64,000 bases of DNA, from contig NC_003279.8 of the NCBI RefSeq assembly GCF_000002985.6, positions 13,392,001 to 13,456,000 on the forward strand, written 5' to 3'. Position 1 is the first letter of the stretch, and every line of letters starts with the position of its first letter. A program made the translations under genes and the position numbers. Of this stretch, positions 22,429 through 64,000 are shown one piece after another. The stretch is from Caenorhabditis elegans (Eukaryota > Nematoda > Chromadorea > Rhabditida > Rhabditidae). The notes beneath the pieces are model-generated. The model did no database searches. It saw only the letters and a list, made by a program, of their open reading frames with translations, and was not told the DNA's origin.

Positions 22429-24779
22429 ATATTTTGACAACGGATCAAGTTGTAGATTGATGGCCTGCGGCGCAAAATCGTTAGGGCGCCTACAGTTTGC
22501 AGACATGCCTGCGGCGCTAGCTTCGTTGAGGCTTCGACTACAAACTACAAACTACAAACTACAACTTAAATATGGAATCTAGTTGAAGATAAGTGACTAC
22601 AAACTACAATTGATGTAAAAGTTTGCCATGGATATGTACGTATTTTTTAAAAATTATTAGTCTGTATAGGATAACTGGTGGCCCTTTGGTTGAGGCTACA
22701 AACCCAGGCTACAAACTACAAAACTCTAGAATTTCGATTCAGCTAGATGAAACTACAAACTACAAAAGTCAGTACAAATTTTTATCGTCACTTCTCATCT
22801 TCAAATTTTGATGCACCATAAGATTAGTAACTTCAAGATTTGATGTATAATGCAAATTTGTTTGACTGCTAGATTGGTTGAGGCTTAGAGACTACAAACT
22901 ACAAAACAGGCTAAGCCTCATCCAACTAGTCTGATATTTCAAGTCTCTTGAGAATTTTTCTTTGACCACTAGATTGTAATTCCAGACATGGTTATTTACT
23001 TTAGTCATAATCTGTTTTCCTCGGGGAATTCGAGATTTCGCTGACGAATTTTTTTTTGGTTGAGGCTAAGAGATTTGTAGTTTGTAGTTTGTAGTCCATA
23101 ACCTCAACCAACCAAAAAATCCAAAAGTTTCGCAAAAAACCGATTAGCGGCGTCCGGACACCCTCCCGCCAGCACATAAATTTGCTTAAATGAATAATTT
23201 TATTTTGCTTTTTCAGATTCGTCATCTTTATAATAGCACTCACCCGTGAAATATGAGCTCTCGAACCTTAGATATTCATCTTTTTTTTGTTTTTTTTTCT
23301 TTTTTCCGCAATAACATGTCAAAAGTAATGGAAAGCAAATACTAGAGTTGGAAAACAAGTTTTGGTTGAGGCTATCAATATTTTGTAGTTTGTAGTTTAC
23401 AGTTTTAGCCTCAATCAAGGTAACCGATTCATAACGATATTGATGATATTGATGATTGAATTGGGCAAGTAAAGGGAAGTGCTTTTTTTAAAAGTTTGTT
23501 ACATTTGTAGTTTACAGTTTATAGTTTTGTAGTTTGTAGTTTGTAGTTCGTAGTTTTTAGGTTCTATTTGTAGTTTGTAGTTCCCGCCTCAACCGAATAA
23601 AGTGGTTATATTACAGTCCGGCCTATTACTCGAAAGTATTAATAGGTATTGAATGAACAAAACAACAATCGATGCTGGCATGTTGTAGTTTGTAGTTTGC
23701 AGTTTATAGTTTGTAGTTTGTAGTTTCTACCCTGCACTTTGTAGTCTCCCAACCTCACTCGATCCCAAGAAACCCATCTCCACCAAAAATCATTTAAAAT
23801 GTGTGAAAATTGCGGTGGCTCTAGTGCAATTTTGAAGAGGGTATTGCCTTGAAACCAGGAAGCCAGGCTTTTTCTGAAATTGGAATTTTTTTTGGTTTCA
23901 AACACCAAAAATCCGTTGAAAATGACGAAAAAAATAGGAAAAGCGCAAAATAAAATTATTCATTTAAGCAAATTTATGTGCTGGCGGGAGGGTGTCCGGA
24001 GACGCCACTAATCGGTTTTTGCGAAACTTTTGGATTTTTTGGTTGGTTGAGGCTATGGACTACAAACTACAAACTACAAATCTCTTAGTCTCAACCAAAA
24101 AAAATTCGTCAGCAAAATCTCGAATTCCCCGAGGAAAACAGATTATGACTAAAGTAAATAACCATGTCTGGAATTACAATCTAGTGGTCAAAGAAAAATT
24201 CTCAAGAGACTTGAAATATCAGACTAGTTGGATGAGGCTTAGCCTGTTTTGTAGTTTGTAGTCTCTAAGCCTCAACCAATCTAGCAGTCAAACAAATTTG
24301 CATTATACATCAAATCTTGAAGTTACTAATCTTATGGTGCATCAAAATTTGAAGATGAGAAGTGACGATAAAAATTTGTACTGACTTTTGTAGTTTGTAG
24401 TTTCATCTAGCTGAATCGAAATTCTAGAGTTTTGTAGTTTGTAGCCTGGGTTTGTAGCCTCAACCAAAGGGCCACCAGTTATCCTATACAGACTAATAAT
24501 TTTTAAAAAATACGTACATATCCATGGCAAACTTTTACATCAATTGTAGTTTGTAGTCACTTATCTTCAACTAGATTCCATATTTAAGTTGTAGTTTGTA
24601 GTTTGTAGTTTGTAGTCGAAGCCTCAACGAAGCTAGCGCCGCAGGCATGTCTGCAAACTGTAGGCGCCCTAACGATTTTGCGCCGCAGGCCATCAATCTA
24701 CAACTTGATCCGTTGTCAAAATATACATTGAAACACATCTTCACTTCCAGATTTTCCGACGTAAAAGTGGCACATCCTG
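22374..24779. repeat. Large palindrome, 843-bp arms with 720-bp spacer
   Basis: Arms 22374-23216 and 23937-24779 are reverse complements with few differences. Positions pair to a constant sum of 47153, and an ORF of 62 codons at 22623-22811 recurs identically on the minus strand at 24342-24530. The arms contain several GGTTGAGGCT and TTGTAGTTTGTAGT motifs and a caggcatg/gcgccgcaggc repeat. Confidence 0.95.
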
Positions 24780-26478
24780 ATCCGTTGTCAAAATATGCTA
24801 TAAATTTGTAAGATTGTAGTTTGTAGTCAATATGTAGTTTGTAGTCTTGCTTAAGTCAATCTTGCGCCTCAGGGATGTATGCAAACTCGCGCCGTAGGCG
24901 CCCTAACAATTTGGCGCCGCAGGCCACCGATCTCCAACTTGATCCTTTGTCATAATATGCTCTTAATTTGTGAAGTTGTAGTTTGTAGTGTCAGTTTCAA
25001 TCAATCTAGTGCCGTAGACGCCCTAACAATTTGGCGCCGCAGGCCACAATTTGTAGTTTGTAGTTATATATATATATATATACATATATATTTAACCTTT
25101 GCCGTATTCAAGGTTGTAGCTTGTAGTCAATCTATAGTTGTAGTTTATAGTTTATCCTCAACCAACTTGGCGCCGCAGGCATGTCTGCAAACTTGCGCCG
25201 TAGGCGCCCTAACAATTTGGCGCCGCAGGCCACCTCTTGCAGTTTGTAGCCCATTTCAACGAAAATCCCCAAGGTGACATACAAACAATGATTTCATCGT
25301 GAGCTTCTCCCCACGAAAAGCTGATGAAACCCTATAGTCTCTCTTCCCCCGTGAGCCCATGCAATTTTCTCGTTTTTCCATAATCGTCGTTGGGGGAGGG
25401 GGGAGCAGGAAAAGTATAGAAGTGAGAGACAGAGTTGCTCGGCGGTGCACCACTTGCGCCATCTTTTTTTTCTCCTTCTCTTCTACTGAGCTTCTTCCTC
25501 CCTCTTCTTCTCTACATCTTCTTCTCCCTACAGAATCGATGGCCCCCCCCCCCCGACGCCTTCTTTTTCTTCTTCTGCCTCCTCACCCCTCCCGAGACAT
25601 TGCTTTTTGCCCCCCCTTTTTCTATACACGTCTTCTTATGTGTGTGCATAGAAGATGACGGGAGTAGTATTGGCTTTTTGGTTGAAGCTCCCAGGCTACA
25701 AACTACAATTTCGATATCTTTAATTTATGATGTCATTCACCTTTTACTACAAACTACAAATGGTGGCCTGCGGCGCAAATTTGTTAGGGCGCCTTTGGCG
25801 CAAGCTAGAAGTCATGCCTGCGGCGCCAGAATGGTTGAGGCTTAGAGACTACAAACTACAACCTTCCAAATCAATTTCAATGAGTTTCAACCCGTATTTC
25901 TCCGAATTATTGAGACTTTCAAACTACAACATATATCATTATTTTTCATGTCTCCTGGGGGATTTTTGGAGGATTTTTCACCGCTTAACACTTTAGTCAT
26001 AATCCATTTTCCACGGGGATTTTAAGTCGAGGTCGAAGATTTTTTTTTAATGAGTACAAATTCAAATTGTAATGCTGTTCAAATGGGTTGGCTAGGTTTG
26101 TAGTTTGTAGTCTCTTTATTTTTTTCGGAGTTAAATCTAATTTATCATAACGTCGTAATACAAAATTTTGTTGAGGCTGTGGTTTTGTAATTTGTAGTCA
26201 CTTTGATATTTTTCGGTTATGTCATTTTATGTATATCATGTATTATAGCCCTAGATAAGCCCAGAATAATTTTTTCCCAAAAATTTTGTAGTTTGTAGTC
26301 TAAACATTCTATTTCAAAGCCTATTAACAAATGACATCATTTTTGCAGATGCTAAGAATTTCATTTTTCACCTGATTTATGTTATTCCGCTCTGATACCT
26401 TTTTAATCACAATTTTCCTTTCTTAAAATCTTATTTTTCTTACATTTTCATTTTCAGAACGACCAAAAAACCAGCAAA
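24780..26478. repeat. Repeat-rich spacer with gcgccgcaggc and ctacaaactac motifs
   Basis: Several imperfect copies of a block containing gcgccctaacaatttggcgc followed by cgcaggcca, separated by TTGTAGTTTGTAGT, a TA microsatellite near 25065-25091, and a pyrimidine-rich stretch (about 25440-25640). ORFs on both strands here are low-complexity artefacts. The final part is the leader of the next gene. Confidence 0.6.
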
Positions 26479-29400: not shown

Positions 29401-31149
29401 GTCTGTGAGCCTCACCCAAGCCTAATTTTCAGGCGTCAATCAAATCGAAACTCGGAATAATGTCATCCTACCGTACCTTAGGATGTGCCTCTTTTACAGG
29501 AGAAGATCCACTTCCAGAAGAACTTGACCCGACAGGATGTGCTACTTTTACGTCGGAAAATCTGGAAGTGAAGACGTGTTTTAAGGTACAAAAACTACAA
29601 ACTACAGTGTAGTCTGAGCCTAAAAAATTTGCAGACAAAGGACAAAGCTGCCGTTGGACGGGCACTCGCGTCGAAACAGATTCCAGAATCAAGGCAGTCA
29701 AAGCCGTCAAAAGGAAATAAACAGTGAGTGACTACAAACTACAAAGACTACAAAAACTACAAACTATAATAACTGCAAACTACAAACTACATAGACCACA
29801 AACTAGAATGTGCAACAACAAAAAAATCAAAATTGGGTGAGGCTGAGACTACATACTACAATTTTTGTGAGCCTCACCCAAAAACTTTATTTTTTTTTCG
29901 TTGTAGGTTAATTTTTCACGCTGAATTCAAATTTTATATTTTTAACACTCAAAAACCACTATTTTTCTAGAAAATCCCAAAAATCAAAGTCAAAGCCAGT
30001 AATGGAGGTGGAGTACGATAACGAGGAGGATGAAGAGGAATCTGAGGAAAAAGAGGAAAAAGTTAAGGGAAAATCAAACCAGAAAACAGTAAAAGAACGA
30101 ATTCGAGCAGAAGAAGCACGAAAAACTGTAGAAAAAGAGGAAGAAGAGGCCGAGGAAGAGGCCGTGGAAGAGGAAAAGGAGGAGAAGGCCGCGGCCGCCG
30201 TCGAGTCTAGTTCAAAGAAATCATTTATCTTCCAAAAACCAACACAACCACCAATTCCTGATGATTCTAATACTACTATGGTGAGGTTGAGACTACAAAC
30301 TACAACATTTCAGCGAAAAAAAATTTTTTGAAATTTTTTTTTTTTTTGATTTTTTTTTTGAAAATCTCAACTCTACCTTATTCCAAAGTATTTTCTAATC
30401 AAGACTAGATCACAAACTACAAAATGCGCAAATTTTTTCTCAGAAATTCAAATTTACGACTTTGAGTCTCACCACAAAAATTTGGAATTTTCTATTTCGC
30501 GGAAACAAAAACACTTGAAAAGTGGGCGGGGCTTAATGTGTATGTACTCAAATTGGAATTTCAATTACGAAATTATAATTGCCAGTGTGTGGACAAAAAC
30601 GCGAAGTTTTAAATTTGCTAAATCCGTGAAGCTCCGCCCACTTTTTCCGTGTTTTCGGATCCACAAAACTCCTCTTTTTGTGAAACCTGATCGGAAAAAT
30701 GTGACTTTTTTGTAATTTTTGTAGGGAATAATTTTTTTCAGTGATAATTATTATTAAATTCAAAAAACTAAAAAAACTATTTTCTCAGGAAACTTAATTC
30801 CGTAGAACTGGGAACTCGGGGAAATTGGGCGGAGTTTAGCTTAAAATTGAGACACATTTGACATTTTCAATTTAAATTTATGAGATTTTATCAATGTGCA
30901 CTACCTAGTTAAGCTCCGCCCTTTTTATCCAGGTTTCTGGTTCCACGGGAAAAAGATTCCTGGTTTTTGTGAGGTCTCTTCGAAAAAATTTGAATTTTTC
31001 TCGATTTTCGCAAGAAATAATGATTTTTCATTCAGATAACCGTATTCGTGCTCATAATTTTGTGCATTCTTGGCTCCGGAATCGTCTGGAAATTCGAATT
31101 GCACAAAAAACTGAAGAGAAGCAACTATGACTCGGTGGCCGGTGGATAA
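26479..31149 (+). CDS. Type I membrane protein with repeated cysteine-rich (ET-module/Ly6-like) ectodomain
   Basis: Nine exons (26479-26535, 27036-27179, 27605-27760, 27879-28079, 28576-28755, 29433-29585, 29635-29723, 29971-30280, 31036-31149) close in frame to 467 residues. A signal peptide (NQSIILFFIAQFSVSAAV) is followed by three cysteine-rich modules of the pattern CFDCVGMDCMGSFCEGEYC ... CFCNGKDLCN, CVCSGAHCKNDKTCVGELC ... CICGTDYCN, and CTGEYCYT ... CATF. These look like the nematode ET module or a Ly6/uPAR-like fold. Next comes a Glu/Lys-rich stretch (about residues 320-400), then one membrane span (ITVFVLIILCILGSGIVW) and a short basic tail ending SVAGG. An acceptor ending at 26457 suggests trans-splicing. 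The role is probably cell-surface recognition; ligand unknown. Five inverted-repeat elements sit in its introns. Confidence 0.82.
26600..26890. mobile_element. Intronic inverted-repeat element, gggcggggctt family (copy 1)
   Basis: Starts near aattcaaaattttcgacttt and ends near its complement (atatttgaattttt). It carries gtgggcggggctt early and a ggttttcaaatccacg block late. Four further copies lie in later introns of the same gene. Confidence 0.6.
28812..29050. mobile_element. Intronic inverted-repeat element (copy 2)
   Basis: gagtcaccactattttttct and ggcggggtttt in the left part; aagctccgcctc, ggtttcaagttcca and gtgaggtctc in the right part. Arms are mutually complementary. Confidence 0.65.
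29066..29330. mobile_element. Intronic inverted-repeat element (copy 3)
   Basis: Same order of blocks: gagtcaccactattttct, tgggcggagttt, then aagctccgcctc, ggtttctggttccacgg and ggggtctcg. Confidence 0.65.
30440..30705. mobile_element. Intronic inverted-repeat element (copy 4)
   Basis: gagtctcaccac, gtgggcggggctta on the left; gaagctccgcccac and gttttcggatccac on the right. It is in the last intron of the cysteine-rich gene. Confidence 0.65.
30775..31005. mobile_element. Intronic inverted-repeat element (copy 5)
   Basis: tgggcggagttta on the left; aagctccgccc, ggtttctggttccacggg and gtgaggtctc on the right. It follows copy 4 in the same intron. Confidence 0.65.
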
Positions 31150-34557: not shown

Positions 34558-36464
34558 ACGCATTTGAATGGAGCGGAGCTGGCGTTTCTTCGTCTTTTTC
34601 AGCTTGTGGATTTTCGTGATTTTCTGAAAGAATAATGTAGTTTGTAGTTGATATAAATGTTTTTTATCAAGAACTTTCTTATACTTTCCGAAGAAAAAGC
34701 AGCTCCTGAACGTTTTTTAACCGCTAAAATGGTTGGTTGAGGCTCAGCTGACTTTGTAGTTTGTAGTCTCAGCCTCAACCAAGTCTTTTGTCGGTTTTTA
34801 TTTGCAAAATTTTGATAATTTATTCAGAGAAACTCCTTAATTCAAGCTAAATATTCAATTTACAAGGAATTTCACGGAAAAAAAACTCGAAAAATCATGA
34901 TTTTTCAGTGTTTTCAAGCCAGAAAAGTTTGGTTGAGGCTTAGTCAACTTTGTAGTTTATAGCCTAAGCCTCACCCTCTCTTTTTTGCGGTTTTTTTGTA
35001 AAATTTTGATAATTTTTACCGAGAAATTCCTTAATTCAAGCTAAATATCTAATTTCCAACGGAACTCACGAGAAAAACTCGAAAAATCATGATTTTTCAG
35101 CGTTTTCCGATGCTTTTTACGCCATGGAAAGGTTGGTTGAGGCTAACTTATTTTGTAGTTTGTAGTCTAAGCCTCAACCACAAATTATAGACAGTTTGAG
35201 CAGGTTTTCCATGAATTTTTGCAGGAAAAATCTTCAAATTGTGCGTTATAGTAATAAATTTTTGATTTATTGTTGGTTTTTCCAGAATAAAAACTCGAAA
35301 AATCATGATTTTTCAGTGTTTTCAAGCCAGAAAAGTTTGGTTGAGGCTTAGTCAACTTTGTAGTTTATAGCCTAAGCCTCACCCTCTCTTTTTTGCGGTT
35401 TTTTTGTAAAATTTTGATAATTTTTACCGAGAAATTCCTTAATTCAAGCTAAATATCTAATTTCCAACGGAACTCACGAGAAAAACTCGAAAAATCATGA
35501 TTTTTCAGCGTTTTCCGATGCTTTTTACGCCATGGAAAGGTTGGTTGAGGCTAACTTATTTTGTAGTTTGTAGTCTAAGCCTCAACCAAAAATTATAGAC
35601 AATTTGAGCAGGTTTTCAATGAATTTTTGCAGGAAAAAACTTCAAATTATGCGTTGTAATAATACTATTTTGATTTATAATTGGTTTTTCAAAAAAAAAA
35701 CGCAAAAAATCATGATTTTTCAGTGTTTTCAAGCCAAAAAAGTTTGGTTGAGGCTCAGCCAGCCTTGTAGTTTGTAGTCTGAGCTTCAACTAAGACTAGA
35801 TCGGTTTTTCATGTATTTTTTGGTAGTTTTTATAGAACAATCCTTCAAAATATTCAATTTTCAAGGAATTTCACGAAAAAAAACACAAAAAATCATGATT
35901 TTTCAGCGTTATCCGATGATTTTTAGGTCATTGAAGGTTGGTTGAGGATCGGCCGGTTTTGTAGTTTGTAGTCTGAGCCTCAACCAATCCGGCAAGCTTT
36001 TTTAACGAATTTTTAGGATTTATAGGATTTAACAAGCGATTTAAGCTTCGTAAATTGGCATTTTCGAATAGAAACGAATTGGTTGAGGCTCAGAAATTCG
36101 TGTAGTTTGTAGCCTACTATTCCAGCTACGAACCTGCACAATTTCAGCCTTTCTCTCGTTTTCCAGCCGTCGCTTCTCCTGTTCCACTTTTCTTTCCTTC
36201 TTTTCTTGTCGTTCTTGTACTTGTTTCTCTCGAATATTGTCCTGAACCCTTTTGACCATATCTTTTTTCGCTTTCAACTCCATTTTCTTGTCCCACGTGG
36301 ATTTTAGGGTCTTCACCTTTTTGATTTCAGAGTGCCTGCAAATTTTTTGGAGTTTTCAGGGGGATTATTCAATAAAAAACGAACTTTTTCTCCTGTTTCG
36401 TCTTCCACCAACGATTTGACTTGCATGTGTCGTTCATGACGAGAAGATTTGCGCCAGTTGACAT
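34534..36464 (-). CDS. CCDC86/Cgr1-like nucleolar coiled-coil protein
   Basis: Three exons, 36385-36464, 36134-36335 and 34534-34623, join in frame to 123 residues. The protein is strongly basic and coiled-coil throughout. LKSTWDKK, QEKRRLENERKAEIVQ and LKKTKKRQLRSIQMRDT align with human CCDC86 (RRLENERKAEVVQ, KKKQLRSIEKRDT), and CCDC86/yeast Cgr1 is linked to large-subunit rRNA processing in the nucleolus. An acceptor (gattttccag) ends 7 bases before the ATG, suggesting trans-splicing. It is transcribed away from the SLC25A46 orthologue, with 455 bp between the two starts. The 1.5-kb second intron holds a tandem 408-bp duplication and several pairing-center-type hairpins. From memory this is Y40B1B.7. 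Confidence 0.85.
34640..36120. repeat. Hairpin-motif cluster and 408-bp tandem duplication in intron
   Basis: Each hairpin has TTGGTTGAGGCT, then TTGTAGTTTGTAGT, then AGCCTCAACCAA; for example 34733-34744 pairs with 34771-34782. A block starting ctcgaaaaatcatgattttt at 34886 repeats at 35294 (period 408). A third, more diverged block follows near 35700. Confidence 0.9.
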
Positions 36465-36919: not shown

Positions 36920-39900
36920 ATGCCTACACAATTCATTAGGAACCGGTCTGCGTTCCCACAAGGAACTAACAATGATATTGATGACTTCCAGTATCAAAAT
37001 GGTGAGTTTTTGGATTTTAAATCGTTAAAATACTTCATTCGGGTTATAAAAATCTAGAAAAATACAAAAAGCCGAATTTTTCAGATTTTTCATCATCTTC
37101 CCACCAGCTTCCTTCAACAGCGTCAGGGTATTCCGAGCACAGTTCACACCAAAATTTCCAGAATCATTCGCCACCACCGGGAAAAGCGACAACTGATCCG
37201 CTGGCCGGAGCACTCCTTGGGCTCTCCGAGTAAGGATTACACTACAAACTACACAGCCTCAACCAAAAAAAAAGAAAAAAATTATCAAATTATTGATGAA
37301 AACTGTCAAAAAATGTGTTTTAAAAACTAGTTTTTTTGTCGAAATTGCAAAAAAATATGCTTTTTCGATATAATTCCCTCATTCTCGGATTTGGTTGAGG
37401 CTCAGACTACAAACTACAACATTTCTAGCCTCAACCATTTTGAAAATGCTCGAAATTTCGCCAAAATAACTGAGAAATTTGAATTTTCAACTTAATATTG
37501 CTGGTTTTAGTTGTTTTAGCGAAAAAATGTGGAAATTATTTTTAAAGAATCAATGATTTTTATGTTAAATTTGTAGTTTCTTGGGAAAAACTCAAATAAA
37601 TCGCCGTTTTTATCGAATTTTAGTACAAATTTCATGAAAATTATAATTTTTCAGCTGAAAATCGACTAAAATTGAGAATTTTCGAAGAAATGGTCTATTT
37701 TTGGTTAAAAATGGCTGAAAAATTCGTTGAGGCTCACACTAAAAACTACACTTCTCGCTGAGCCTCACCCAATCTTCAAATCGAGATTTCAATAAATTTT
37801 TACGAATTTAAGTTTTTACAAATGCAGTTTTCAATTAAAAATTCAGATTTTATGTGGTCAATTTCGTATTTTCTCCCTTTAAATCACACAAGCTCCCCAA
37901 AAAAACCGAAAAATCTGATTTGGTTGAGGCTCAGACTACAAACTACAACATTTCTAGCCTCAACCATTTTGAAAATGCTCGAAATTTCGCCAAAATAACT
38001 GAGAAATTTGAATTTTCAATTTAATATTGCTGGTTTTAGTTGTTTTATATATAATATTAAGGTTATGGAAATTTTAATGATTTTTTATTTGAAATTTGTT
38101 GAAATTTGGTGTTTCTGGGCAAAAACCTTTTAAAAAATCGCCATTCTAAGCGAATTATAGCGCGAAGTTGTGATTTTCCAGCTGAAAATCGACGAAAATC
38201 GCTAATTTTTAAAGAAAAATGTATATTTTTGGCTTAAAAATGGCTGCAAAATCCGTTAAAGCTCATACTACAAACTACACTTCTCGCTGAGCCTCACCCA
38301 ATCTCGAAATCGAGATTTCAATCAATTTTACGAATTTAAATTTAAAGAAACGCAGTTTTCAATTAAAAATTTTGATTTTATGCTGTCATTTTCGTATTTT
38401 CTCCCTTTAAATTGCGTATTTTTTGGCAAAAAATGGCTGAAAAGTTCGTTGAGGTCACACTACAAACTACAACTTTCGCTGAGCCTCACCCAATCTCAAA
38501 ATCGCCATTTTTATCGAATTTTAGTACAAATTTCGTGAAAATTGTAATTTTTCGGCTAAAAATCGACTAAAATTGAGAATTTTCGAGGAAAAAAAAAGGC
38601 GAAAATTGACTATTTTTGGCTTAAAAATGGCTGCAAAATCCGTTGAGGCTCACACTACAAACTACACTTCTCGCTGAGCCTCACCCAAATGAAAAAAACG
38701 AGTTTAAATGTTTTTTGCGCTTAAATTAATCGATTTTAAAGGATTTTGTTTTCAATTTTCCGCCTAAAATACCACTACAAACTACACAATTTTCAGCGTC
38801 ATCACAAAATCGCTAATTTCCCATCCATGCGGTGTGCTCCGCCGTCAATGTCAAGTTCATCAGTTCGCTGGATCTCTCCACCTGACACCAGTCACACTGA
38901 TTCCTGTAATCTGTAATTCTGTCGCTAAACAAGGAATTCAGACATTCTGGAAAGGAGCAATCGGCTCAAGTGTGCTCTGGGGCCTCACGAATGTTACGGA
39001 AATTGTGCTCGGCGATCTTATGGGGTTGCCACGTACTTTTGTGGTTAATGGAAGTGCTGAAAAGTATTGGAAACATATTGTTCTGAAGGGGTAACGGAAT
39101 TAAGACGAAAAAAAAAATTAAAAATTGATAATTTTCAGAGTAACATTTGTAACAATGACTCCATTCTACATCTCATCATTCATTGAAACTGTTCGAGTAG
39201 GCTACAAACTACAAACTACAAAAGCTCTCAGCCTCAACAATCCAATTTTCAGAGCGAATCCGGAATTGGTGGTGAAGACAATAAAATTCTGGATGTTCTT
39301 GTGAAGGGTGTGGATCGAATGCGATATTTTTTGACTTCGGGACGAGATCCGTCCAGGAGATTCTCGATTATTCATTTGGCTATTCCAACTGCGGGATTTC
39401 AGTGAGTTTTTGCTGGAAAATCACGAAAAATGACCAAATTTAGTGAAAAAATACGCGAAAATCAGGTCAGAATATGAAAAATTGGTTGAGGCTCAGACTA
39501 CAAACTACAATTTTTGTTTAGCCTCAACCAAGGAAAAATATGTGAAAATTACTGATTTTTCCTGGTTTTTAGTGTTTTTTAGTGAAAACTCATCGATTTC
39601 AGTGGGAAAATTTTAAAAAATGTCTTCATGTTTCCCGGATTCTCCAACGAAAAATTGGAAATTTAAGGAAATTTAACTTGGTGAGGCTGAGAACGAAGTG
39701 TAGTTTGTAGTCTCTGGGCCTCAACTAAATTTCGAACAGTTTTTTAAAGATAAAAAGCCGGAAAACACATTTTTGTTCAAAAAAACTAGTTTTTCAAAGA
39801 AAAATTCGTTCGAAAAAGTTGAAAAACGGCTGAAAACTCGCAAAAATCGAAGATAATTTGTTGAGGCTCCAAAATTTGTAGTTTGTAGTCTCTGAGCCTT

Positions 39901-42378: not shown

Positions 42379-43504
42379 AAATTTCAATTTCATAATTTAA
42401 ATATTCCTCTTGATTGATTTTCGCCTAATTTTCCGAGTTTTTTTTAGTTTATTTTACATTTATTTTCCTATTTAAATAGGAATATTTCTGTGTGTTTATG
42501 CCGCCCGATTTCCCCCAGCTAGTCTACGGTAAGCGATTGTACGCAAACACCGAGCGCGGTGTTTGCGTACTCTGCCATTTATTTTTTCGATGAAATTTTT
42601 GCATTTTGAAACTCGTTTTTCGGGTGATTTTAATTGATTTTTAGCTCGTTTTTCTTCGTATTTTAGTTTATATTTTCTTTTTCAAGTGTTAAGGAACCTT
42701 TTAACCATGCGTGACACCTATTTTTCCCGAGAAAATGTGAATTTAAGGCATTTTTAGGTCTAGATGTTCCACGTCACTTTATTTCTAGATTCAGCTAATT
42801 ATTTCGCAATATTTAACGAATTTCCTCAAAGATATCCAATAAAAACCAAGCGGAAGCTTTGAAAATCGAAAAATTCACTGAAGAAAACTATTTTTGTGAC
42901 TTTTTGCCCAATTTTCTCGGATTCTGGGGCTTTTAACGTTTTAAAACGTCGGAAATTTGGCAAATTTCCAAAACCCCGGGTTTTTTGTTGTAATTTTTGG
43001 AAAATATTAAAATAATTCAGCGAAAAGCCTGAAAATGCATTAAAATCCGATAGTTTTGGTGAAAAATTGCATTTTCTCTGATTTTTTTTCGAATTTTATC
43101 GTAATTATCGAGAAAAAACCATGTTTAAACGAAAAAAATGCTCGAAAAATTAGTTTTTTCTCTGTAATTTTAATTTTTTTTGAAGGTTGAGGCTCTGGCT
43201 ACAAACTACAAAACTATTTGAGCCTCACTCAATGCCTAAAAGCCTGATTTTGATAGAAAAAATTGAATTTTTTGTGGTTTTTCTCGAATTTTTTAGTGAA
43301 AAACTCACTTTTCACGACGAAAATGCTCAAAAACTATCATTTCCCATGATTTTGCGGGATTGGTTGAGGCTTCGGCTACAAACTACATTACTATTTGAGC
43401 CTCAACCAACCAATTTTTAACAGTTTTCTTCAATTTTTCATGTTTTTTCTCGCATTTCCCGCAATTAACTCAACATAATATATTACAGAAAACTCTAGGA
43501 AACA
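42379..43504. other. Spacer between SLC25A46 and eif-3.J
   Basis: Holds the 3' UTR of the upstream gene (AATAAA-type signal near 42838), the hairpin at 42539, two hairpin-type motifs (43180-43220, 43362-43410) and an acceptor attacag at 43484-43490 preceding eif-3.J. The 1.1-kb distance is long for an operon gap, so eif-3.J probably has its own promoter. Confidence 0.55.
42539..42570. repeat. Perfect 14-bp-stem hairpin after SLC25A46
   Basis: gtacgcaaacaccg, loop agcg, then the exact complement. It is in the 3' flank of the SLC25A46 gene. The half-site cggtgtttgcgtac also occurs at 60359-60372. Confidence 0.85.
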
Positions 43505-49000: not shown

Positions 49001-52000
49001 TGGACGTATTCACAGTTTTAAATCGAAAAGTGGAGAGATTATGGAGACTGGAGGTGATACGCTGCGAAAAATCGAGGATTCACCGATGGCCACGTTGTTG
49101 CATCAGGTTTGTGCGGAAAATCGGTGGAAATTGCGGAAAAGTCGAGGAAAATTGATTAAAAATTGGAGATTTTATCAAAAATCCGATTTTTGTATCAAAA
49201 ACTTGTGAAAAACCTATGAAAAACTGCAGATTTCGGCGAAAAATACCTGAAAAACGGCAAATTTGTAGTAGAAATATCATTTTTTGTTTAAAAAAATTGT
49301 GAACATCGATCAAAAACGGCATATTTCAGCGAAAAATACCGGAAAAACGACGGAATTTAATCAATTTCGTTTTTTGGTTGAGGCTCACACTACAAACTAC
49401 AATCGTTCTTAGCCTCAAGCATTGTTCTGGTTGAGGCTGAAACGTTCGTAGTATGTAGTCTGGGCCTCAACCAAAGTGGATTGACCAATTTTTCAGAAAT
49501 TTCAATAAAAAGGAAAACATTTTCCGTAATGTTTATCGAATTTTATTGAGAAAATTGATTAAAAAACTGCAGATTTTAGCAAAAATACTCGAAAAATGTA
49601 TTTCTCCAAAACATCTATGAAAAAATGCAATTTATTAGCGAAAAAACTCGAAAAACGACAAATTTTTTGGCAAAAATTCAATTTTTGCTGAAAAAAATTT
49701 AGAAAATTGATTGAAAAACTGCAGATTTCACCGAAAAAATCCCGAAAAACGACGAAATTTAATCAAAATGACGATTTTCGTTTTGGTGGAGGCTCACACT
49801 ACAAACTACAATCGTTCTTAGCCTCAACCATTGTTCTGGTTGAGGCTGAAGCGTTTGTAGTTTGTAGTCTGAGCCTCAACCAAAGTTGATCAACGTATTT
49901 TCCAGAAATTTCATGGAATTTTCTTGAAAAAGACAAATTTTCCGTAACTTTATTGAAAAAATCGAAAAAAAAACGATTTTTGAACGAAAAATCATGTTTT
50001 CAAAAAAAATTGGTTGAGGCTCAGGCTACAAACTACACTTTTTAATCCTCAACCAGTATAAAAGTAGGTTAAACATTGTAGTTTGTAGTCTGAGTTGGAA
50101 AATTTGCAAATTTTACTCAACTCTAAAAACTACAGTACCTGTAACTTTGTAGTTTGTAGTCAGAAATTTACCACTCCGCGTGATATATCTTTCATTACAA
50201 ACTACAAATCTAAAGTATTTGTGGTTTGTAGTGAGAGCTCACACTACAAACTACACAAAACATTCAATTTTTTGATATCGAAAACGAAAAAGTGAAACAT
50301 TTTTTATTAAATAAGTGTTAAATTTGACAAAATTAATTTTTTTTTTCCGACTTTTTTTTTGGATTTTTCAATAAAACAAAAATTTCAGGTAAACTTCGAA
50401 GAGCACGGAGTATTCGATTTCACCTCAGTATTCGTCGAGGGTCGTCCATTAAACGAAGAAAAGATTCATTTATTCCTAGATCACTATAAATCTGCTCACG
50501 GAGCCCTAAACTATCAAGCCCATCAATGTGAGCATCGTGATGATCAGGGATCATTTATTTCCCGACAACAAGCCTATGAGAATCTATTAAGTATGTGTGA
50601 ACGTGGAACACTTATCAAATATTATAACTTTTGTAAATCACTGGAAACCGTCGCCCGAGCCCGTGAGCATCATTTCAATCAAATGAAACAGTTGAGAATG
50701 ACAGCATTGATGGCTGAAAATCAGCTGAAAAAAATGGAAGAAGAAGGAAATTTGGAGCAGGATCCGGTGCTCAGAAGATCATTAAAACGGGATATTGCAA
50801 CATCACTCGAGAAATTTGAAGAAGTCGCTGACGCTTTTGAGACGGCTGATAATCATTGGCAACGGCTTAATGAGCATCCACAGGCGAAACAATATATGCA
50901 TCCGGGATCTGAATTCGCGACTTTTAATTTTATGTTGGGATTTGAGGAGTATTTGGTTGGAGCACAATTGGAAAAAGTGCAATTCTCGTGTGATTCGATG
51001 CAAAATAAGGAGAATGGAGTGGCGGCGAGATGTTAGTGATTTGAAAAGAGCAAAATTTGATGGAAAATTTGGAATTTTTTCGTTGAAGAATTTGAAAGTT
51101 TAAGGAAAATGGGAAAATTTAAATTTTGGACTTTTTTTTGACAAAAAATTGGCAAAATTTTATAAAAGTGCGAAAAAATCGAAAATTTTCGATTTTTCGA
51201 AAAATCGAACGAGAAGAAAATTCAATGGAAAACATTTGAAATTTCATGAAGAAACCTGAAAATTGTGACGAATTTTCGATTTTTAGGCAAAAAAAATGAT
51301 TTCCTATTTTTTTTCACTTTCGAAAAAAAAACTGAAATTTTGTCAAACAAACTTAATTCAATTTTTTTAAAGAATTTTTCTGCCAAAAATTGGATTCTCT
51401 ATTTATTTTCGTGTTAACGCATTTGAAATTCGAGAAAAAATTGGAAATTTTCAATTTTGGAATTTTTTGGCGAAAAAAAATTCCGCAAAAATTGATAAAA
51501 TTGCAGAAAAAACGGAAATTTTTAGCGAAAAATAGCTTTTCCTGAAAATTGAAAAATTCACGTGTATTTTTTGATTTTTTGAATTTTTTTCCTAATAAAG
51601 TCGTAAAAATCTGTGAAAATTCACGAAAATCTTTCAAATTTTCGGATAATTCAGTTCAAAACGCTCGAAAATTTGAATAATAATCCAAAATCCACGTGGA
51701 TTTATTGATTTTTTGAATGATTTTTGGATTTTGGATAGAAAATGTCAAAAATCGTCAAAATACTAACTAGAACAGTGATAATTGAAATTTTTAGACTATA
51801 CAGGCTTAATCCAATGAAATATAATCATCAATAAAATTACAGTAACCGAAGGAATTGCCGAACTGCTAACACAATTATCGGAAAAACGAAAATTGGATAT
51901 TCGTCTGAAGCATCGTGTTTTGGATATTGATTATAGCGGATTTGAGCATGTTTTACTGAAAGTTCAGCGAGAAAATGGAGATATTGAAGAAATGAAAGCC

Positions 52001-55000
52001 GCTTTTGTAGTATCTACACTTCCAATTGGTGTACTTAAAAAGTACGTGCCATTTTTCGAGAAAAAAATTGATTCGAAAAAAAAACGAATTTAGCGTAGTC
52101 GTTTTAGAAGCACTGTTAAAAAAATTGCAGAAAAAAATTGAAAAATAACCGAAAATCGCGGGGTTTTTTGCCGAAAACGCTGAATTTTTCAGGAAAAAAA
52201 CGAAATTTTAAAAAATAAGTTTATGCCGAAAAATCAGTAAAAAATTGAATTTTTAACTTAAATTAACGCCAAAAACTAAAAAAAAAACCACATTTTTCCA
52301 AGAAAATTGCGAAATTTTCACTGAAAAAACTCAAAACTAGAGGAATTCATTCAATTAGGTGATTAAAATAGATATTTGCCTACAACATTCTGAAAATTCG
52401 AATTTTTATCGCTGAAAAATGGGGAAATGCGGATTTTTCCAAAAAAAAACGAAATTTTCAGAGTAAAAACTAGCTATTTGGCTTTAAAATTTGAAAAATT
52501 GAGTTTTTGTTTTTTTTCCTTCAAAAAATTGAGCTGAAAATGAAAAAAACACATTTTTCCAGAAAAAAGTAGCAAAATTTTCATTGAAAAAACTCAAAAA
52601 CTAGAGAAATTCTGTACATTTTTCAGATTAAAATCGATATTTGGCTACAAAATTCTAAAAAAAAAATTGAATTTTTATCACAAAAAGTACAGGAAAATGT
52701 TTAAAACTAAGAGAACTTGAATTTTATTGTTTTTTTCATCTTTTTAATCAATAAAATGCAAGTTCTCTTAAGTTTTATACATTTTCGTGTATTTTTTGTG
52801 ATAAAAATTCAATTTTTTTTTTTAGAATTTTGTAGCCAAATATCGATTTTAATCTGAAAAATGTACAGAATTTCTCTATTTTTGATTTTTTTCAATGAAA
52901 ATTTTGCTCGTTTCGACTCAATTTAACTCAAATTTTCAAATTTTCCAAATAGCTATTTTAAGTCTAAAAATTCGAAAATCTCCGTTTTTCACCGGAAAAA
53001 TCCGAAAAAATATGCATTTTTAAGATCAAAGATCAATTTTTTAGTAGTAAAAAATTCGACTACACCACCTTTAAATAAAAAATAACACATTTTCCAGAAC
53101 AATTATCGCCGACGAGCGTGCTCCGACGTTCACTCCCTCACTACCCGATAAAAAAGTGGAAGCAATTCGAAATATTGGCTGTGGAAGTGTGAATAAGTGT
53201 ATTCTCGAATTTGATCGAGTTTTTTGGACGGCAAATGGTGGAAGAAATCAATTTGTGACGGTTTCACCGAATATGTGAGCGGTTTTTTCGGACTACAAAC
53301 TATAAAACGTACTGGTTGAGGCTCAAAGACTACAAACTACAAATTTCTGAGGCTCACCAAGTTTTCTGTCGTTTTTTAAGTTTTTCCGAACGAATTTTTC
53401 CCTGAAAAACTAGGTTTTTGAACAAAATTTCTGTTGTTTTTTTCGGGTTTCTATTCGATTTTTAAACCAAATCTTGTCAGTTCAAATTTGATTGAGGCGT
53501 AGACTACAAACTACACTTTTTCTGTTAGCCTCAACCATTTTTCGCAGAATTTTGCAGTATTTTTTTTTTTTTGAAAAATCCTAATTTTCGTTTAAAAAAT
53601 CAAGATCTTGGCCCGAAAATAGCGAAAAAAACGTCAAATTTGTATTTTAAAAGAACATAAATTTTGGTTGAGGCTCAGAGACTACAAACTACAATTCATC
53701 CTCAGCCTCAACCAATTACTAGTGTTGAAAATGTCACATTTTTAGTTACAACGTTGGGTTTTGACCGTTTTCTCCTATTTTTCGATGACAAAATTTAAGA
53801 TTTAGCAAGAAAAATCTTTAAGGAAACTGAAATTCGCTCGAAAATAGCAAAAAAATTTCAAATTTTCGAAGAAAAGCTTTTCACTATTTTGGTTGAGGCT
53901 CATAGACTACAAACTACAATTTTTGTTAGCCTCAACCATAGCGAAATTATTGGAATTAAAAAAAAATATTTCGTTAAAAAATTTGTTTTTTTAAAGAGTG
54001 ACGAATCACACTACAAACTACACAATTCTAGGAAAAACCGAATTTTTTTCCGATAAAAAATTTTTTGAAATCAGGTTTTTGACTACAAACTACAAAAAAA
54101 AAAAGTTATTTTTGGCTAAAAAATCTGAAAAAACACTTTTTTTGGTAATAAAATTTTATATTTTCGGTAGTTTGTAGTGTGTACATTTCCTAAAATTTTC
54201 GATAAAAATCAATTTTTTTTTGAAAAAAATTTTGGAGCTCCCACAAAACTACAAACTACAAAATGTTAAAATTTAATTTTTGAAAAAAAAATTGTCTGAT
54301 TTTTAGATTTGTAGTTTGTAGCCTTTTGAAAATGAAATTTCCTACGAATTTCTCATTAATAACGTTTATTCTAAGAAGCTCCGACTACAAACTACAATAT
54401 TTTATTTTTAAAACAATTGGTTGAGGCTCAGAGACTACAAACTACACAAATCTATCAGCCTCACCCATAATTTTAAATTTTCATTATATTTGGATGAGGC
54501 TCAGAGACTACAAACTACAAACTACACAAAATTCCATTTTTTCTATGAAGAAATCAATTTTTAATAGTTTTGAAATACAAAATTGAAAAAAAAAAATTTT
54601 AATTAGGCTCCCACAAAACTACAAACTACAAAAAGTCACATTATTAGATTTGTAGTTTGCAGTCTCTCATTAATAACATTTATTCCTTTAAAAAAAAACA
54701 AGAATTGTGACTGAAAAATAAGCTCCGACTACAAACTACAATATGACTATTTGGTTGAGTTGCGCAGACTACAAACTACAAACTACACAAAATTAAATTT
54801 TTTTTTCCAGAAAAACACGTGGCTCCATGAATATCTGGTCATCAGTGCCTGGCTCAAAAGTACTGTGTACCTACATTGTAGGCGAAGAGGCAATGCTCGA
54901 GCTACCCGATGACGTCATAATTCAAAATGCGATGATAAATCTTCAAAAAGCATTTGGAAATAATTGTCCACGTGCTCCAATCAGTGCACATATTACACGT

Positions 55001-57930
55001 TGGCATGATGATGAGTTGGCATTTGGATCCGGTGCATTTATGAGCTTAAGGACTGAAACTACAAGCTTTGATGACGTCATGGAACCCCTCAAAACCTCCG
55101 ATGGAATGTCACGGGTCTATTTTGCTGGAGAACACACGTGTTCCAGCTATACATCGACGATTCAAGGAGCATGGATGTCTGGGGCGAGGTACAGACACTA
55201 CAAACTACAAACTACACTTTTTTTTTTGCTGGCTACAAACTACATAATTGTGGTGGAAGCTTGTAGTTGTGAGGCCCAGCGTGACTACAAACTACACTTT
55301 TTGACTGGCGAAAATTGCAATTTCTTACTAGGGAATATTGTTAATAGGGGAATTGCTAGGAAGACACAACAAACTTTAAACGACAGATGAGGTCTTTGGC
55401 TACAAAAATCATTTTTTGGAATCTGCTAAACTCTGCCCCAAAGCTGAAATTTTCGGCCTTAAAAAGTAGTCCTCTTTTTGCTCAAAATGCCGTTTTTCGT
55501 GTGTAGAAGTGGCTACATAAAAGTTTGGCACTGCAGCCGCCGTTCGAATGGCCGATTGGTGAACTCTCGTGCTCATTAATCTAAAGGTCACGGGTTCGTT
55601 CCCCACTAGGTATTAATTTTTTTTTTTGAATTTTTCCTCTAGCATGAAAAATGCACAAAAACACAACAAATTGTCAGTTGAATCTACTCTGCTAAATTTT
55701 ATGGGTAGAGAGATATGGGCATTAGTAATTAAGTATGTTAAAGCTTCACTTCGATTATTTATTGGTACTTTTGAAACAACTTTGCAGTTGACAACTTTTT
55801 TTTATTTTACCCGTCAACGGAGCTGGAAGTCTTTGAAAGTAGGTCCTTTTCGTGAAAAACTCTAGAGAAAACAACAGTGGTTTTCTCCTAAAAATGACAT
55901 TTGATCCTCCAAAATCGTAGAAATATCCAAACTAATGCTGTTCTTTCAAACCAAACACTTTTTGAAAAAATTTTGAAAAATTATTTTTGAAGAAAAATAT
56001 GTGCATATCAGGTGGGAGAAAAGTGAAAATTTATCAAAAAAAGAAAACTTCCAAAAAGTTTCCAAATTACTTTTATGATTACCAGGAACCAAAAAATTTA
56101 TTCCGAAGTTACCAAAAAACGGAAGAAACCGTGTTTTTGTGCATTTTTCATGCTAGAGGAAAAATTCAAAAAAAAAATTAATACCTAGTGGGGAACGAAC
56201 CCGTGACCTTTAGATTAATGAGCACGAGAGTTCACCAATCGGCCATTCGAACGGCGGCTGCAGTGCCAAACTTTTATGTAGCCACTTCTACACACGAAAA
56301 ACGGCATTTTGAGCAAAAAGAGGACTACTTTTTAAGGCCGAAAATTTCAGCTTTGGGGCAGAGTTTAGCAGATTCCAAAAAATGATTTTTGTAGCCAAAG
56401 ACCTCATCTGTCGTTTAAAGTTTGTTGTGTCTTCCTAGCAATTCCCCTATTAACAATATTCCCTAGTTAGCACAAATCCAATTTATATTCCAACAAAAAA
56501 AATTGAGAAAATCGATGAAAACCTGCAGATTTCAGCGAAAAGCATCGGAAAACGACAAAATTTAATCGAAAATCCAATTTTTGTTTTAAGTGAGGCTCAC
56601 ACTACAAACTACAACATTTTTAGCCTCAACCATTGTTGTTTGGTTGAGGCTGAAAATTTGTAGTTTGTAGTCCGGGCCTCAACCAATGTTGATTGTCCAA
56701 TTTTCCAGAAATTTCATGGAATTTTCTTGAAAAAGACAAATTTTCTGTAACTTTATTGAAAAAATCGAAAAAAAAAACGATTTTTGAACGAAAAATCACG
56801 TTTTCAAAAAAAATTTGGTTGAGGCTCACACTACAAACTACAACATTTTTAGCCTCAACCATTGTTGTTTGATTGAGGCTGAAACGTTTGTAGTTTGTAG
56901 TCTATTGTGAAAATACCTGTTTTCTGAAATAAAAACGGTGCTAAAAAGACACGTGGATTTATTTTAAAAAATCGCAGTTTTCTGTAGTTTGTAGTGTAAT
57001 TAAGTCTCACACTACAAACTACAATGTTTTATAAAAATTCGGAAAAAAAGTTATTAAAAAATTTGAAAATTGCCTTTTTTATTGAAATAAAAATTTTTTA
57101 CAAAATTTCCAACAAAAAATGATTTTCTGTGAAAAAATTGTTCACTACAAACTACAAAATTTCGAGAAATCTTGTAAAAATTTGAAAAATGTGATAAAAT
57201 TCTCATATTTTGCTTTAAAGTTTTTTTTTCTTACAAATAACTTTTTTTGGAAAAAAATTTGAAGGTTTTCATCTTTTTTGTAGTTTGTAGTGTAATTAGT
57301 TATACTACAAACTACAATAATTTGTAACGAATTCCAAAAATTTCGAAGAAACATTTTTTTGTTGTAGTTTGTAGTGTAAATTCGATAATTTTTACAATAT
57401 TTCCGAAGAAAAAGCTCTAAAAATTGAGGACACACTACAAACTACAAGATAAATAAAGTTGTAGTTTGTAGTCTGAGACCCTTTTGAAAATATTTATAAA
57501 AAATACAGAAAGTCACCATTTTTTAACCCAAAATTGAAAAATCTGCTATCTTAAATTTGTTCCAAAAAATATTGTAGTTTGTAGTCTACCTAAAAAAAAC
57601 TACAAACTACATTTTCTTCTATTTTTCAGAGCCGCCGCCGACATTTCCAACGATCATATTGGCATCGGCTTTGTGGATATAAGTGGAACACGTGGTCAAC
57701 GCGGTGATGAAGAAGAAGAGCTTCTCATTGAAGTGGATATTGATGGAAAAATTCCGGAGAAGGATGAAAATGAGGCTGTAGCTGATATTCCAAATGCTCC
57801 AAATGCTCCAAATGCTCAAAAACCCGAAGAAATCCCGAAAATCGCCGAAGAAATTGAACTCGTGGCTGAAGCTGAAAAGGCTGAAAAAGCTGAAGTCCAG
57901 CTGGAGCCACTAGTGCCAACAGTTGAATAG
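46068..57930 (+). CDS. spr-5: SPR-5, LSD1/KDM1-family histone H3K4 demethylase
   Basis: Eight exons (46068-46146, 46907-47136, 48801-49106, 50389-51031, 51843-52041, 53098-53274, 54811-55188, 57630-57930) give 770 residues. In order: an acidic N-terminus; a SWIRM domain (exons 2-3, from LAFFPELWEHKTAVEVFLLL to HYLSRHGLINFGRY); the FAD-binding motif VIVIGAGAAGISAATQL; an amine-oxidase fold interrupted by a long helical Tower insertion (exon 4, KSLETVARAREHHFNQMKQL onward) that in LSD1 binds CoREST; VNKCILEFDRVFW with the Lys equivalent to LSD1 K661; YFAGEHTCSSYTSTIQGAW at the FAD site; and an acidic, Ala-rich tail. It removes H3K4 mono/dimethyl marks using FAD; in C. elegans SPR-5 works with the CoREST protein SPR-1 and resets germline chromatin between generations. 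It is downstream of eif-3.J in a probable operon. Introns are very long and repeat-rich. Confidence 0.96.
46190..47930. repeat. Hairpin-motif cluster in spr-5 introns 1 and 2
   Basis: At least seven GGTTGAGGCT/AGCCTCAACC units around TTGTAGTTTGTAGT. A unit reading gaggctgaaacgtttgtagt near 47294-47313 recurs near 44406, 49434 (with cgttcg), 49842 and 56876. Confidence 0.85.
47715..47775 (+). pseudogene. Duplicated 3' end of spr-5 exon 2 inside intron 2
   Basis: About 60 bases reproduce the end of exon 2 and its donor (aacgtttttccgccgttcaa, then ttggacttgattcaggtgtg), matching 47090-47150 with one or two changes. It has a donor but no acceptor, so it should not be spliced in. The duplication extends into the following intron sequence. 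Confidence 0.85.
48225..48535. repeat. Tandem duplication in spr-5 intron 2
   Basis: A block including ttgaaaatgcttatttttttg and gaaaaaaattcctttccgaa at about 48215-48305 is repeated at about 48440-48530. Confidence 0.8.
49370..50250. repeat. Hairpin-motif cluster in spr-5 intron 3
   Basis: Paired GGTTGAGGCT units with both orientations of ACTACAAACTACA. The stretch 49372-49480 is repeated at 49780-49890 (ctacaatcgttcttagcctc in both). Confidence 0.85.
52602..52879. repeat. Foldback hairpin in spr-5 intron 5
   Basis: Arms of about 120-130 bases (agagaaattctgtacatttt ... and its complement ending at 52879) surround a short loop near 52740. The arms match almost completely, differing by small A/T-run indels. 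Confidence 0.85.
53290..54800. repeat. Dense motif cluster in spr-5 intron 6
   Basis: More than fifteen ACTACAAACTACA or complement copies in 1.5 kb, several bounded by GGTTGAGGCT/AGCCTCAACC (for example near 53313, 53664, 53890, 54419). Confidence 0.85.
55535..55612 (+). other. tRNA-derived sequence inside left inverted repeat
   Basis: A-box-like TGGCCGATTGGT (consensus TGGCNNAGTGG) and B-box-like GGTTCGTTCCC (consensus GGTTCGANNCC) lie about 40 bases apart, with an anticodon-arm-like stretch between. The acceptor stem does not close well, so it is unlikely to be a working tRNA. An inverted copy lies at 56182-56259. Confidence 0.6.
56182..56259 (-). other. tRNA-derived sequence inside right inverted repeat
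   Basis: Reverse complement of 55535-55612, with identical A- and B-box-like motifs read on the minus strand. Confidence 0.6.
56580..57610. repeat. Motif cluster in spr-5 intron 7
   Basis: GGTTGAGGCT hairpins at about 56640-56690 and 56817-56862, then a series of bare TTGTAGTTTGTAGT and complement copies to the last spr-5 acceptor. Confidence 0.85.
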
Positions 57931-58380: not shown

Positions 58381-58500
58381 TTTAGGCTTAGCTTATCCCT
58401 AAGCTTTAGCTTTGGCTTAAGCTTAGGCTTAGTTTTAGGCTGAGGCTCAGGCTTAGGCCCAGGCTTCAGCTTAGGCTTAGGATTTGGTTTAGGCTTAGTC
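58381..58500 (+). repeat. Degenerate interstitial telomere repeat (TTAGGC)n
   Basis: ggcttaggctta-type hexamers in the TTAGGC register, interspersed with variants (ggctgaggctcagg, tttaggcttag). TTAGGC is the nematode telomere unit. Confidence 0.75.
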
Positions 58501-58517
58501 TTTCTTTTTTTTTTAAG

Positions 58518-61029: not shown

Positions 61030-61270
61030 TTTGTAGCAGGGGCGAATCGGCAAAACGGCAAATTTTCGAAAATGAAAATTTCCGGCAAATCGGCAAATTG
61101 TCGGAATTGAAAATTTCCGGCAAAACGGCAAATTTTCGAAAATGAAAATTTCCGGCAAATCGGCAAATTGTCGGAATTGAAAATTTCCGGCAAAACGGCA
61201 AATTTTCGAAAATGAAAATTTCCGGCAAATCGGCAAACTGCCGGAATTGAAAATTTCCGGCAAAAAAATC
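61030..61270. repeat. 70-bp tandem repeat, about 3 copies
   Basis: Each 70-bp unit is two 35-bp halves: one with cggcaaaacggcaaattttc, the other with cggcaaatcggcaaattgtc. It begins caggggcgaatcggcaaa, resembling the terminus of the hAT-like family at 9758 and 31523, so it may be an expanded remnant. Confidence 0.85.
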
Positions 61271-61524: not shown

Positions 61525-61820
61525 TTTTTTGCTTAAAATAGGCTCAACAGTTGTCCAACGCTTCTATGTGTATTCGGGCGTGCGGCCCTCAACATGAATT
61601 ATTGGGCTCAGAATAGGCCTAAAAGTTGTCCAACGCTTCTGCGTCTATTTGGGCTTGCGACACTCGAACTGAATTATTATGCTAAGAATAGGCTTGACGG
61701 ATCTCCAACACTTCTTCGTGTATTCGGGCCTGCGGCCCCCAACTCGAGTTTTTGGGCTCAGTATAGGCTTAACGGCTGTCCAATACTTTTGTGTATTCGG
61801 GCCTCCGGCCCTCAATCCGG
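61525..61820. repeat. About 78-bp tandem repeat, nearly 4 copies
   Basis: Units contain aataggc, gttgtccaacgcttct, gtgtattcgggc and tgcggccctcaa with 10-20 percent divergence. Confidence 0.85.
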
Positions 61821-62922: not shown

Positions 62923-62929
62923 TATAAAA
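62923..62929 (+). promoter_or_regulatory. TATA box of the 63-kb peptide gene
   Basis: tataaaa lies 36 bases before the ATG at 62965, leaving only a very short leader with no trans-splice acceptor. Confidence 0.65.
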
Positions 62930-62964
62930 ATGCTGTAAAACCTCCAAGTAACCTCCATTCAACA

Positions 62965-63515: not shown

Positions 63516-63644
63516 TCAAACATGTAGTCCAAAATAGATGGAAGAGAGTGCAGTGAGGAATTTGGTAGTTCTTCGATTGATTTCTTGTGTTGCAAGTACC
63601 TGAGGTACATTCTTGTTCGCCGATAGGGAATTCGCTCCGGTATA
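63516..63644 (-). CDS. 3' exon of a further minus-strand gene (partial)
   Basis: An acceptor (ttttttgcag on the minus strand) ends at 63645, and the frame then encodes 42 residues (YTGANSLSANKNVPQVLATQ ... SSIYFGLHV) to a TGA at 63516. No preceding exon was identified before the window edge, although it may lie beyond 64000. Product unknown. Confidence 0.45.
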   Translation of the reverse strand, partial: YTGANSLSANKNVPQVLATQEINRRTTKFLTALSSIYFGLHV

Positions 63645-64000
63645 CTGCAAAAAAACATGGATTTTTAGATTGAAACACGCTTTAATTAGTATTGGTATAG
63701 ATTTTAAGCTACAAACTATAAAAGGTATATCTGTGTAGATTATAGTTTGTAGTCTGTTTGTAGTCAAAACTACAAACTACAACCTATTCTCAGTTTCGCA
63801 CAAACATTATAGTTTATAGCGAATTTATGTAATCTCTAAGCTTCACTCAATTCTTTTCACTGTTAAAAATGATAAACTGTCCATCAAACACTACAAAAAC
63901 TATAAACTACACACTTTTATGTATAAATTTACATTTATAATTGTATACGTTAAATAAAAAACTTGAAATAAATACAGTGTGGGAAAGTTCTATAGGACCC
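63645..64000. other. Edge region with ctacaaactac motifs
   Basis: Several copies of the ACTACAAACTACA motif and degenerate forms (63700-63920). No gene seen; probably intron of the partial minus-strand gene. Confidence 0.5.

Follow-up and report, generated by a model that had tools for sequence, protein, structure and literature searches.

The closest known counterpart of the DNA considered here is the Caenorhabditis elegans pairing center of the ZIM-3 class. ZIM-3 binds the right end of chromosome I and the left end of chromosome IV, and the class is characterized by a 12-base motif clustered mainly at these two ends in ~1000 copies (PMC9071541). Pairing-center proteins, which are phosphorylated by CHK-2, bring in PLK-2 and are joined to SUN-1/ZYG-12 complexes at the nuclear envelope (PMC9908027). 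That ZIM-3 is shared by chromosomes I and IV leaves the specificity of pairing unexplained, and spacing barcodes have been proposed as an answer (PMC11098084). Terminal repeats that have been described in relation to meiotic pairing centers are tandem satellites, unlike the elements reported here. We analyzed 64,000 bp of chromosome I (C1:13,392,001-13,456,000; hereafter the window, with positions counted from its first base), in which a ZIM-3-type 12-mer, TTGGTTGAGGCT, recurs in ~50-bp tripartite elements built of two inward-facing 12-mers around a core of two ACTACAA heptads, ACTACAAACTACAA. From their sequence, we consider it likely (probability of roughly 0.85) that these elements constitute ZIM-3 recruitment DNA in an architecture belonging to chromosome I, with each element providing two inward-facing sites and an accessory core.

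The exact 12-mer, which we take to be the published ZIM-3 motif, was found 52 times in the window, always within 22,686-60,987 and never in 1-22,685, against a shuffle expectation of 0.01. Its 10-mer core word, GGTTGAGGCT, had 74 copies (0.05 in shuffles), and only the one at 16,553 preceded 22.5 kb. A preliminary description of this DNA, which had reported dense 12-mers from ~22.5 kb onward and essentially none in 0-16 kb, was therefore correct on this point; its array, drawn as far as 63,920, has to be shortened, since the last exact 12-mer ends at 60,987 and bare heptads alone reach 63.9 kb. The genome-wide count proposed in that description was made on the 100,286,401-bp assembly (7 contigs, including C1, chromosome I, 15,072,434 bp, and C4, chromosome IV, 17,493,829 bp) and gave 1002 exact copies, compared with 8 for a reversed-pattern control. 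The split among chromosomes was determined for 102 of the 1002 copies, in two letter-biased subsets defined by set letters preceding or following the 12-mer. Results showed 87 copies on C1, 12 on C4 and one each on C2, C3 and C5, i.e., 99 of the 102 on chromosomes I or IV, and equal density on the other chromosomes was not found in either subset. All 87 copies on C1 lay right of 10.96 Mb and 11 of the 12 on C4 lay at its left end (the remaining one at 8.04 Mb), so that, within these letter-biased subsets, the two ZIM-3-class ends took 98 of 102 copies, with four elsewhere. Among the matches listed from the full count (100 of 1002), those on C1 were all right of 10.96 Mb save one at 6.77 Mb. 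Taken together with the motif, this distribution points to ZIM-3 pairing-center DNA, as the preliminary description had supposed. The assignment of the region to the pairing center of chromosome I is well supported by its sequence, and we infer that ZIM-3 is the protein that would bind the 12-mer.

Element anatomy was determined in 282 kb of chromosome I, comprising the window and loci L001-L020, L023 and L024. The 284 facing elements of this sample shared a single order, i.e., 12-mer, linker, ACTACAAACTACAA, right linker and inverted 12-mer, and we define the strand of an element by the orientation of its ACTACAA core. The left linker was 3 nt long in 131 elements, 5 nt in 132 and 4 nt in 12, the right linker measured 7-9 nt in 253 of the 284, and the distance between the arms was 36-40 bp in 257. 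When facing pairs were gathered without requiring a core, one was nonetheless present at no more than 2 mismatches in 268 of 269, compared with 1 of 239 shuffled spacers; the enclosed two-heptad core appears to set the chromosome I pairs apart from the ZIM-3 class as described. Exact 12-mers behaved accordingly: 315 of 323 had the core downstream, 264 had a facing partner, and none had a direct neighbor 15-29 bp away.

A census of core runs was taken in a contiguous 264-kb stretch of C1, where a full element was defined as a core with both arms, each at no more than 3 mismatches, and a half element as a core with one 12-mer under the same limit. The 673 runs comprised 260 full elements, 127 half elements and 286 bare cores. 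Since an arm at this limit also occurred beside 78 of 4000 random places, some of the half elements are chance associations. Exactly two heptads were present in 258 of the 260 full elements, 118 of the 127 half elements and 222 of the 286 bare runs (full vs. bare, Fisher P = 3e-17, a value inflated by related copies). In the window, the same census gave 53 full elements, 19 half elements and 71 bare runs. The full elements there spanned 44-57 bp (median 50), with both arms exact in 10, and contained 45 of the 52 exact 12-mers.

A flank filter against duplicated copies left 74 of the 284 elements (the thinned set). Across 342 comparisons within this set, identity was 0.88 and 0.87 in the arms and 0.95 in the core, values inflated by the mismatch limits used in collecting the elements, as compared with 0.71 and 0.47 in the left and right linkers and 0.33 and 0.32 in the flanks, which are unaffected by those limits. 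Within the arms, GAGGC was nearly fixed, and both chromosome I and two chromosome IV loci tolerated changes of T to G at position 5 and of G to A at position 4. Since each arm varies like an independent binding site, with substitutions tolerated alike on both chromosomes, these results argue for one reader.

We also measured the spacing between consecutive elements, taking those whose flank similarity did not exceed the 95th percentile for random places. Of the 88 such pairs within 700 bp, 54 were spaced at 120-260 bp (median 177, quartiles 168 and 201), nine at 60-80 bp and one at 80-120 bp. A spacing of ~177 bp is of nucleosome scale in general terms, no repeat length specific to C. elegans nucleosomes having been seen among the papers listed; it may also have originated in very old tandem duplication. 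Bare heptad clusters at three loci on the left arm of C1 gave weak autocorrelation peaks at ~150-210 bp. Arrays of the ACTACAA heptad with no ZIM-3-type 12-mer seen adjoining them were observed at L025, L026 and L027 on that arm and at L039 and L040 on C2.

To compare the arrangement of the 12-mer among chromosomes, pairs of exact copies were scanned genome-wide. Facing pairs (20-34-bp spacer) numbered 143 (control 0), and all of the 121 that were placed were on C1, tandem copies such as those at 13.884 Mb included. Direct pairs (4-14-bp spacer) numbered 122 (control 0), with 98 on C4, 2 on C3 and none on C1 among the matches listed (100 of 122, in contig order). At two chromosome IV loci taken from places with single 12-mers (L021 and L022), all 81 exact copies, three edge sites having been dropped, had a direct neighbor 15-29 bp away, and none of the 81 had a core or a facing partner; a single bare core with one mismatch was present in L022. 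Five C4 loci together held 252 sites at no more than 2 mismatches, 251 of them on the strand of their own array, with 239 adjacent direct steps of mostly 18-23 bp, no facing steps and no exact cores. The 234 sites of four C1 loci, by comparison, showed facing steps 88 times, back-to-back steps 9 times and direct steps 7 times. These loci were not chosen at random, as three of the five on C4 (L028-L030) came from the direct-pair list and L034 on C1 from the facing-pair lists; more weight should therefore be given to the two genome-wide scans and to L021/L022. The same 12-mer therefore has a different DNA architecture on two chromosomes thought to share ZIM-3. The preliminary description had named facing pairs at 34733-34744/34771-34782 and 40926-40937/40964-40975, which are present exactly so, and had postulated a fixed core between them, which is real and corresponds to the word given above, left unnamed at the time; facing pairs are, however, not general for the 12-mer, since the chromosome IV loci are direct arrays. 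Direct ZIM-3-type 12-mers arranged as on chromosome IV were also seen, as a small array, in the interior of chromosome III (C3:9.85-9.87 Mb).

Loci on chromosomes V and X were taken from clustered places, using 12-mers that are presumably those of ZIM-2 and HIM-8. With these 12-mers, the pairing-center-type arrays of IV, V and X share with chromosome I the motif grammar TTGG-N5-GCW. They differ from it in that no facing pairs were present in the five IV, five V and two X loci. On X, the HIM-8-type 12-mer was arranged directly, mostly 21 bp apart, and on V the ZIM-2-type 12-mer was likewise direct. The same two-heptad core followed 59 of the 164 ZIM-2-type sites on V (gap of 3 in 54 and of 2 in 5; 105 without a core). 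Of the five V loci, three contained it, and no exact copy of the word was found in any of the IV or X loci. Since the core stands beside ZIM-2-type sites on V, it is not tied to the 12-mer of one ZIM protein, and since chromosome IV arrays lack it, ZIM-3-type sites can stand without it. The V arrays L031 (mostly of 32-bp period) and L035 show ZIM-2-type 12-mers in alternation with this core. Direct arrays of the HIM-8-type 12-mer were also seen off X, at C2:2.11 Mb, C3:67.8 kb, C3:1.24-1.27 Mb and C5:18.2 Mb. A generic direct-repeat scan of the genome returned 867 places (control 7), and the ZIM-1 motif of chromosomes II and III was not identified among the matches listed (100 of 867).

If the elements are ZIM-3 recruitment DNA, the region would sit close to the left edge of the pairing center's distal block on chromosome I. 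An inward-facing site would be offered on either side of the two-heptad core of each element; the protein bound there would be a C2H2 protein of the pairing-center kind, with ZIM-3 as the most likely candidate, and the core itself is probably not a ZIM-3 site. ZIM-3 would bind the 12-mers during early meiotic prophase, undergo phosphorylation by CHK-2, bring in PLK-2 and connect the chromosome end to SUN-1/ZYG-12. Two ZIM-3 molecules could sit head to head across the core, which might bind another factor or fix the placement of nucleosomes. We infer that the core, which can stand with a ZIM-3-type site (chromosome I) or a ZIM-2-type site (chromosome V), is a module in its own right, acting through protein binding or chromatin.

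Several observations weigh against this interpretation. The ZIM-3 label of the 12-mer derives from its chromosome distribution, and many elements are related through duplication, as the small size of the thinned set indicates. Two arm substitutions differed between the chromosomes: T to A at position 1 occurred in 78 of 659 arms on I vs. 1 of 127 in two IV loci, and G to T at position 3 in 51 of 659 vs. 0 of 127. Linker lengths were barely correlated (r = -0.04, n = 267; r = -0.22 in the thinned set, n = 65), so the two linkers do not offset each other to keep the arms at a set distance. The data thus give no indication of a rigid ZIM-3 dimer, and we rejected rigid dimer spacing although the arm distance is confined. 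In addition, integrated arrays of binding motifs act as artificial pairing centers, their core content being unstated in the available portion of the source (PMC9071541). Considering that such arrays work and that chromosome IV lacks the architecture, the core and facing geometry are probably not essential to pairing-center activity as such.

Two alternatives would deny that the facing pair is a pair of protein sites or that it arose as one. The preliminary description had raised the possibility of cruciforms, and selection on arm base pairing, whether in a cruciform or an RNA hairpin, would fit the folding of single strands from all four tested elements (z -4.5 to -7.2). Such folding is expected of any 12-bp inverted repeat, however, and changes in one arm matched at the corresponding position of the other were not in excess (13 vs. 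a shuffled mean of 21.4 in the 284 elements; 6 vs. 7.0 in the 74 thinned ones). Pairing between the bases that directly adjoin the arms on either side was at about chance level, and the 12-mer is conserved without an inverted partner at the chromosome IV loci. We therefore rejected a selected hairpin or cruciform, which appears very improbable. Slightly less improbable, yet still doubtful in the extreme, is a small foldback transposon resembling a miniature inverted-repeat transposable element and bounded by terminal inverted repeats of 12 bp; it would have spread along chromosome I and either carried ZIM-3 sites or later been used as such. The elements do have sharp outer boundaries, inverted 12-bp ends and hundreds of copies, and the flanks of the thinned set are near background identity. 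Target-site duplications, on the other hand, were not in excess at lengths of 2 (33 vs. 38.4 expected), 3 (15 vs. 16.7) or 4 nt (1 vs. 6.0), and lengths of 5-9 nt were represented by 0-1 copies each among the 284 elements. Moreover, the linkers differ in length although arms and core are retained (the right linker being the least conserved part between the arms), the placed facing pairs are confined to one chromosome, and half elements make up 127 of the 673 core runs. This candidate, which has the terminal inverted repeats and lacks the duplications, was likewise rejected.

Two further alternatives are both compatible with pairing-center identity. The 12-mer might have joined heptad arrays that already existed on chromosome I and spread with them by duplication, in which case orientation and core would have no function of their own. 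Such drift is favored by heptad arrays that lack 12-mers on the C1 left arm and on C2, as well as by plain local tandem duplications, and we regard it as a real possibility, albeit one with odds somewhat below even. It accounts less readily for the presence of two heptads in full elements when bare runs vary (a contrast inflated by related copies, with two heptads also the rule in half elements), for the retention of arms and core in copies with unrelated flanks, and for a similar close arrangement with a different 12-mer on chromosome V. Alternatively, core and orientation could be a feature of chromosome identity that keeps the ZIM-3-sharing chromosomes I and IV from pairing with each other. 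The core, lying 3 or 5 nt from a ZIM site on I and 3 nt from one on V, would then be a second module, common to I (ZIM-3) and V (ZIM-2) and absent from the IV (ZIM-3) and X loci examined, and core and orientation would together make up a code specific to each chromosome, recognized by a putative second DNA-binding factor or through nucleosome placement, that tells ZIM-sharing chromosomes apart. The difference between I and IV in the examined loci and in the genome-wide pair scans, together with the shared-ZIM problem noted above, favors this idea. Nevertheless, specificity may arise later (e.g., through synapsis checking), and X can pair via a ZIM-2-recruiting array (PMC9071541), so that arrays of the same kind are not required; we consider both the identity role and the code unlikely. 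What would be new beside spacing barcodes is that I and IV differ in the orientation and composition of their sites, and that the chromosome I core also adjoins the sites of another ZIM on chromosome V. Testable constructs follow directly, with the same sites placed facing or direct and the core present or absent.

The novelty of the facing element and its core is provisional. A literature search, judged from listings and passages, brought up no account of the facing element, nor of the heptad in pairing centers, the primary motif papers (Phillips 2009, Sanford and Perry 2001) being outside its coverage, and a search by motif and heptad letters had no pairing-center paper among the matches listed, as judged by title. 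In the available portion of PMC9071541, "palindrom" and "inverted repeats" appear in other contexts only, and the available portions of PMC8455136 and PMC3158051 added nothing on motif geometry.

Within the window, the first element cluster (22374-24779) comprises elements at 22874-22925, 23056-23111, 23362-23418, 24043-24098 and 24228-24279. It coincides with an inverted duplication (22374-23056/24097-24779) whose 683-nt arms are 100% identical and 1040 nt apart; since these five of the 53 full elements lie in or beside the duplication, they are not independent. An isolated element on the plus strand (29833-29881) is followed on the minus strand by the first of the named pairs, with both 12-mers exact (34733-34782), and by four elements within a 408-bp tandem repeat (35133-35181, 35541-35589 with both arms exact, 35744-35793 and 35938-35987). 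Plus-strand elements then lie at 37391-37438, 37723-37772, 37920-37967, 38445-38493, 38639-38688 and, with both 12-mers exact, 39482-39531. A run of ten minus-strand elements occupies 39677-41691 (39677-39728, 39857-39906, 40390-40439, 40579-40628, 40720-40771, 40926-40975, which is the second named pair with both arms exact, 41100-41148, 41274-41325, 41459-41508 and 41641-41691). Further groups are found at 43183-45281 (43183-43232, 43360-43409 exact, 44047-44096, 44346-44395, 44400-44449 exact, 44567-44618 exact, 44937-44984 and 45234-45281), at 46193-47928 (46193-46236, 46369-46418, 46577-46626 exact, 46739-46788, 47241-47290, 47290-47339 exact and 47877-47928) and at 49374-50056 (49374-49422, 49783-49831, 49836-49883 and 50010-50056). 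The last two groups lie at 53488-54468 on the plus strand (53488-53538, 53664-53715 exact, 53889-53939 and 54417-54468) and at 56586-56862 (56586-56633, 56640-56686 and 56815-56862). The 19 half elements and 71 bare runs, each run with at least two ACTACAA heptads, are scattered over 22537-63912.

Other repeats in the window include a 26-bp satellite of ~160 copies at 97% to the left of the first element cluster (12328-16484), a degenerate interstitial array of the telomere-type repeat TTAGGC (58382-58502), a 35/70-bp satellite (61048-61265) and a 75-bp satellite (61537-61815). A flavin amine oxidase gene lies in pieces on the plus strand at 48699-55390, with Pfam domain PF01593 in the first and last pieces and none in the middle, and tripartite elements sit between its open pieces.

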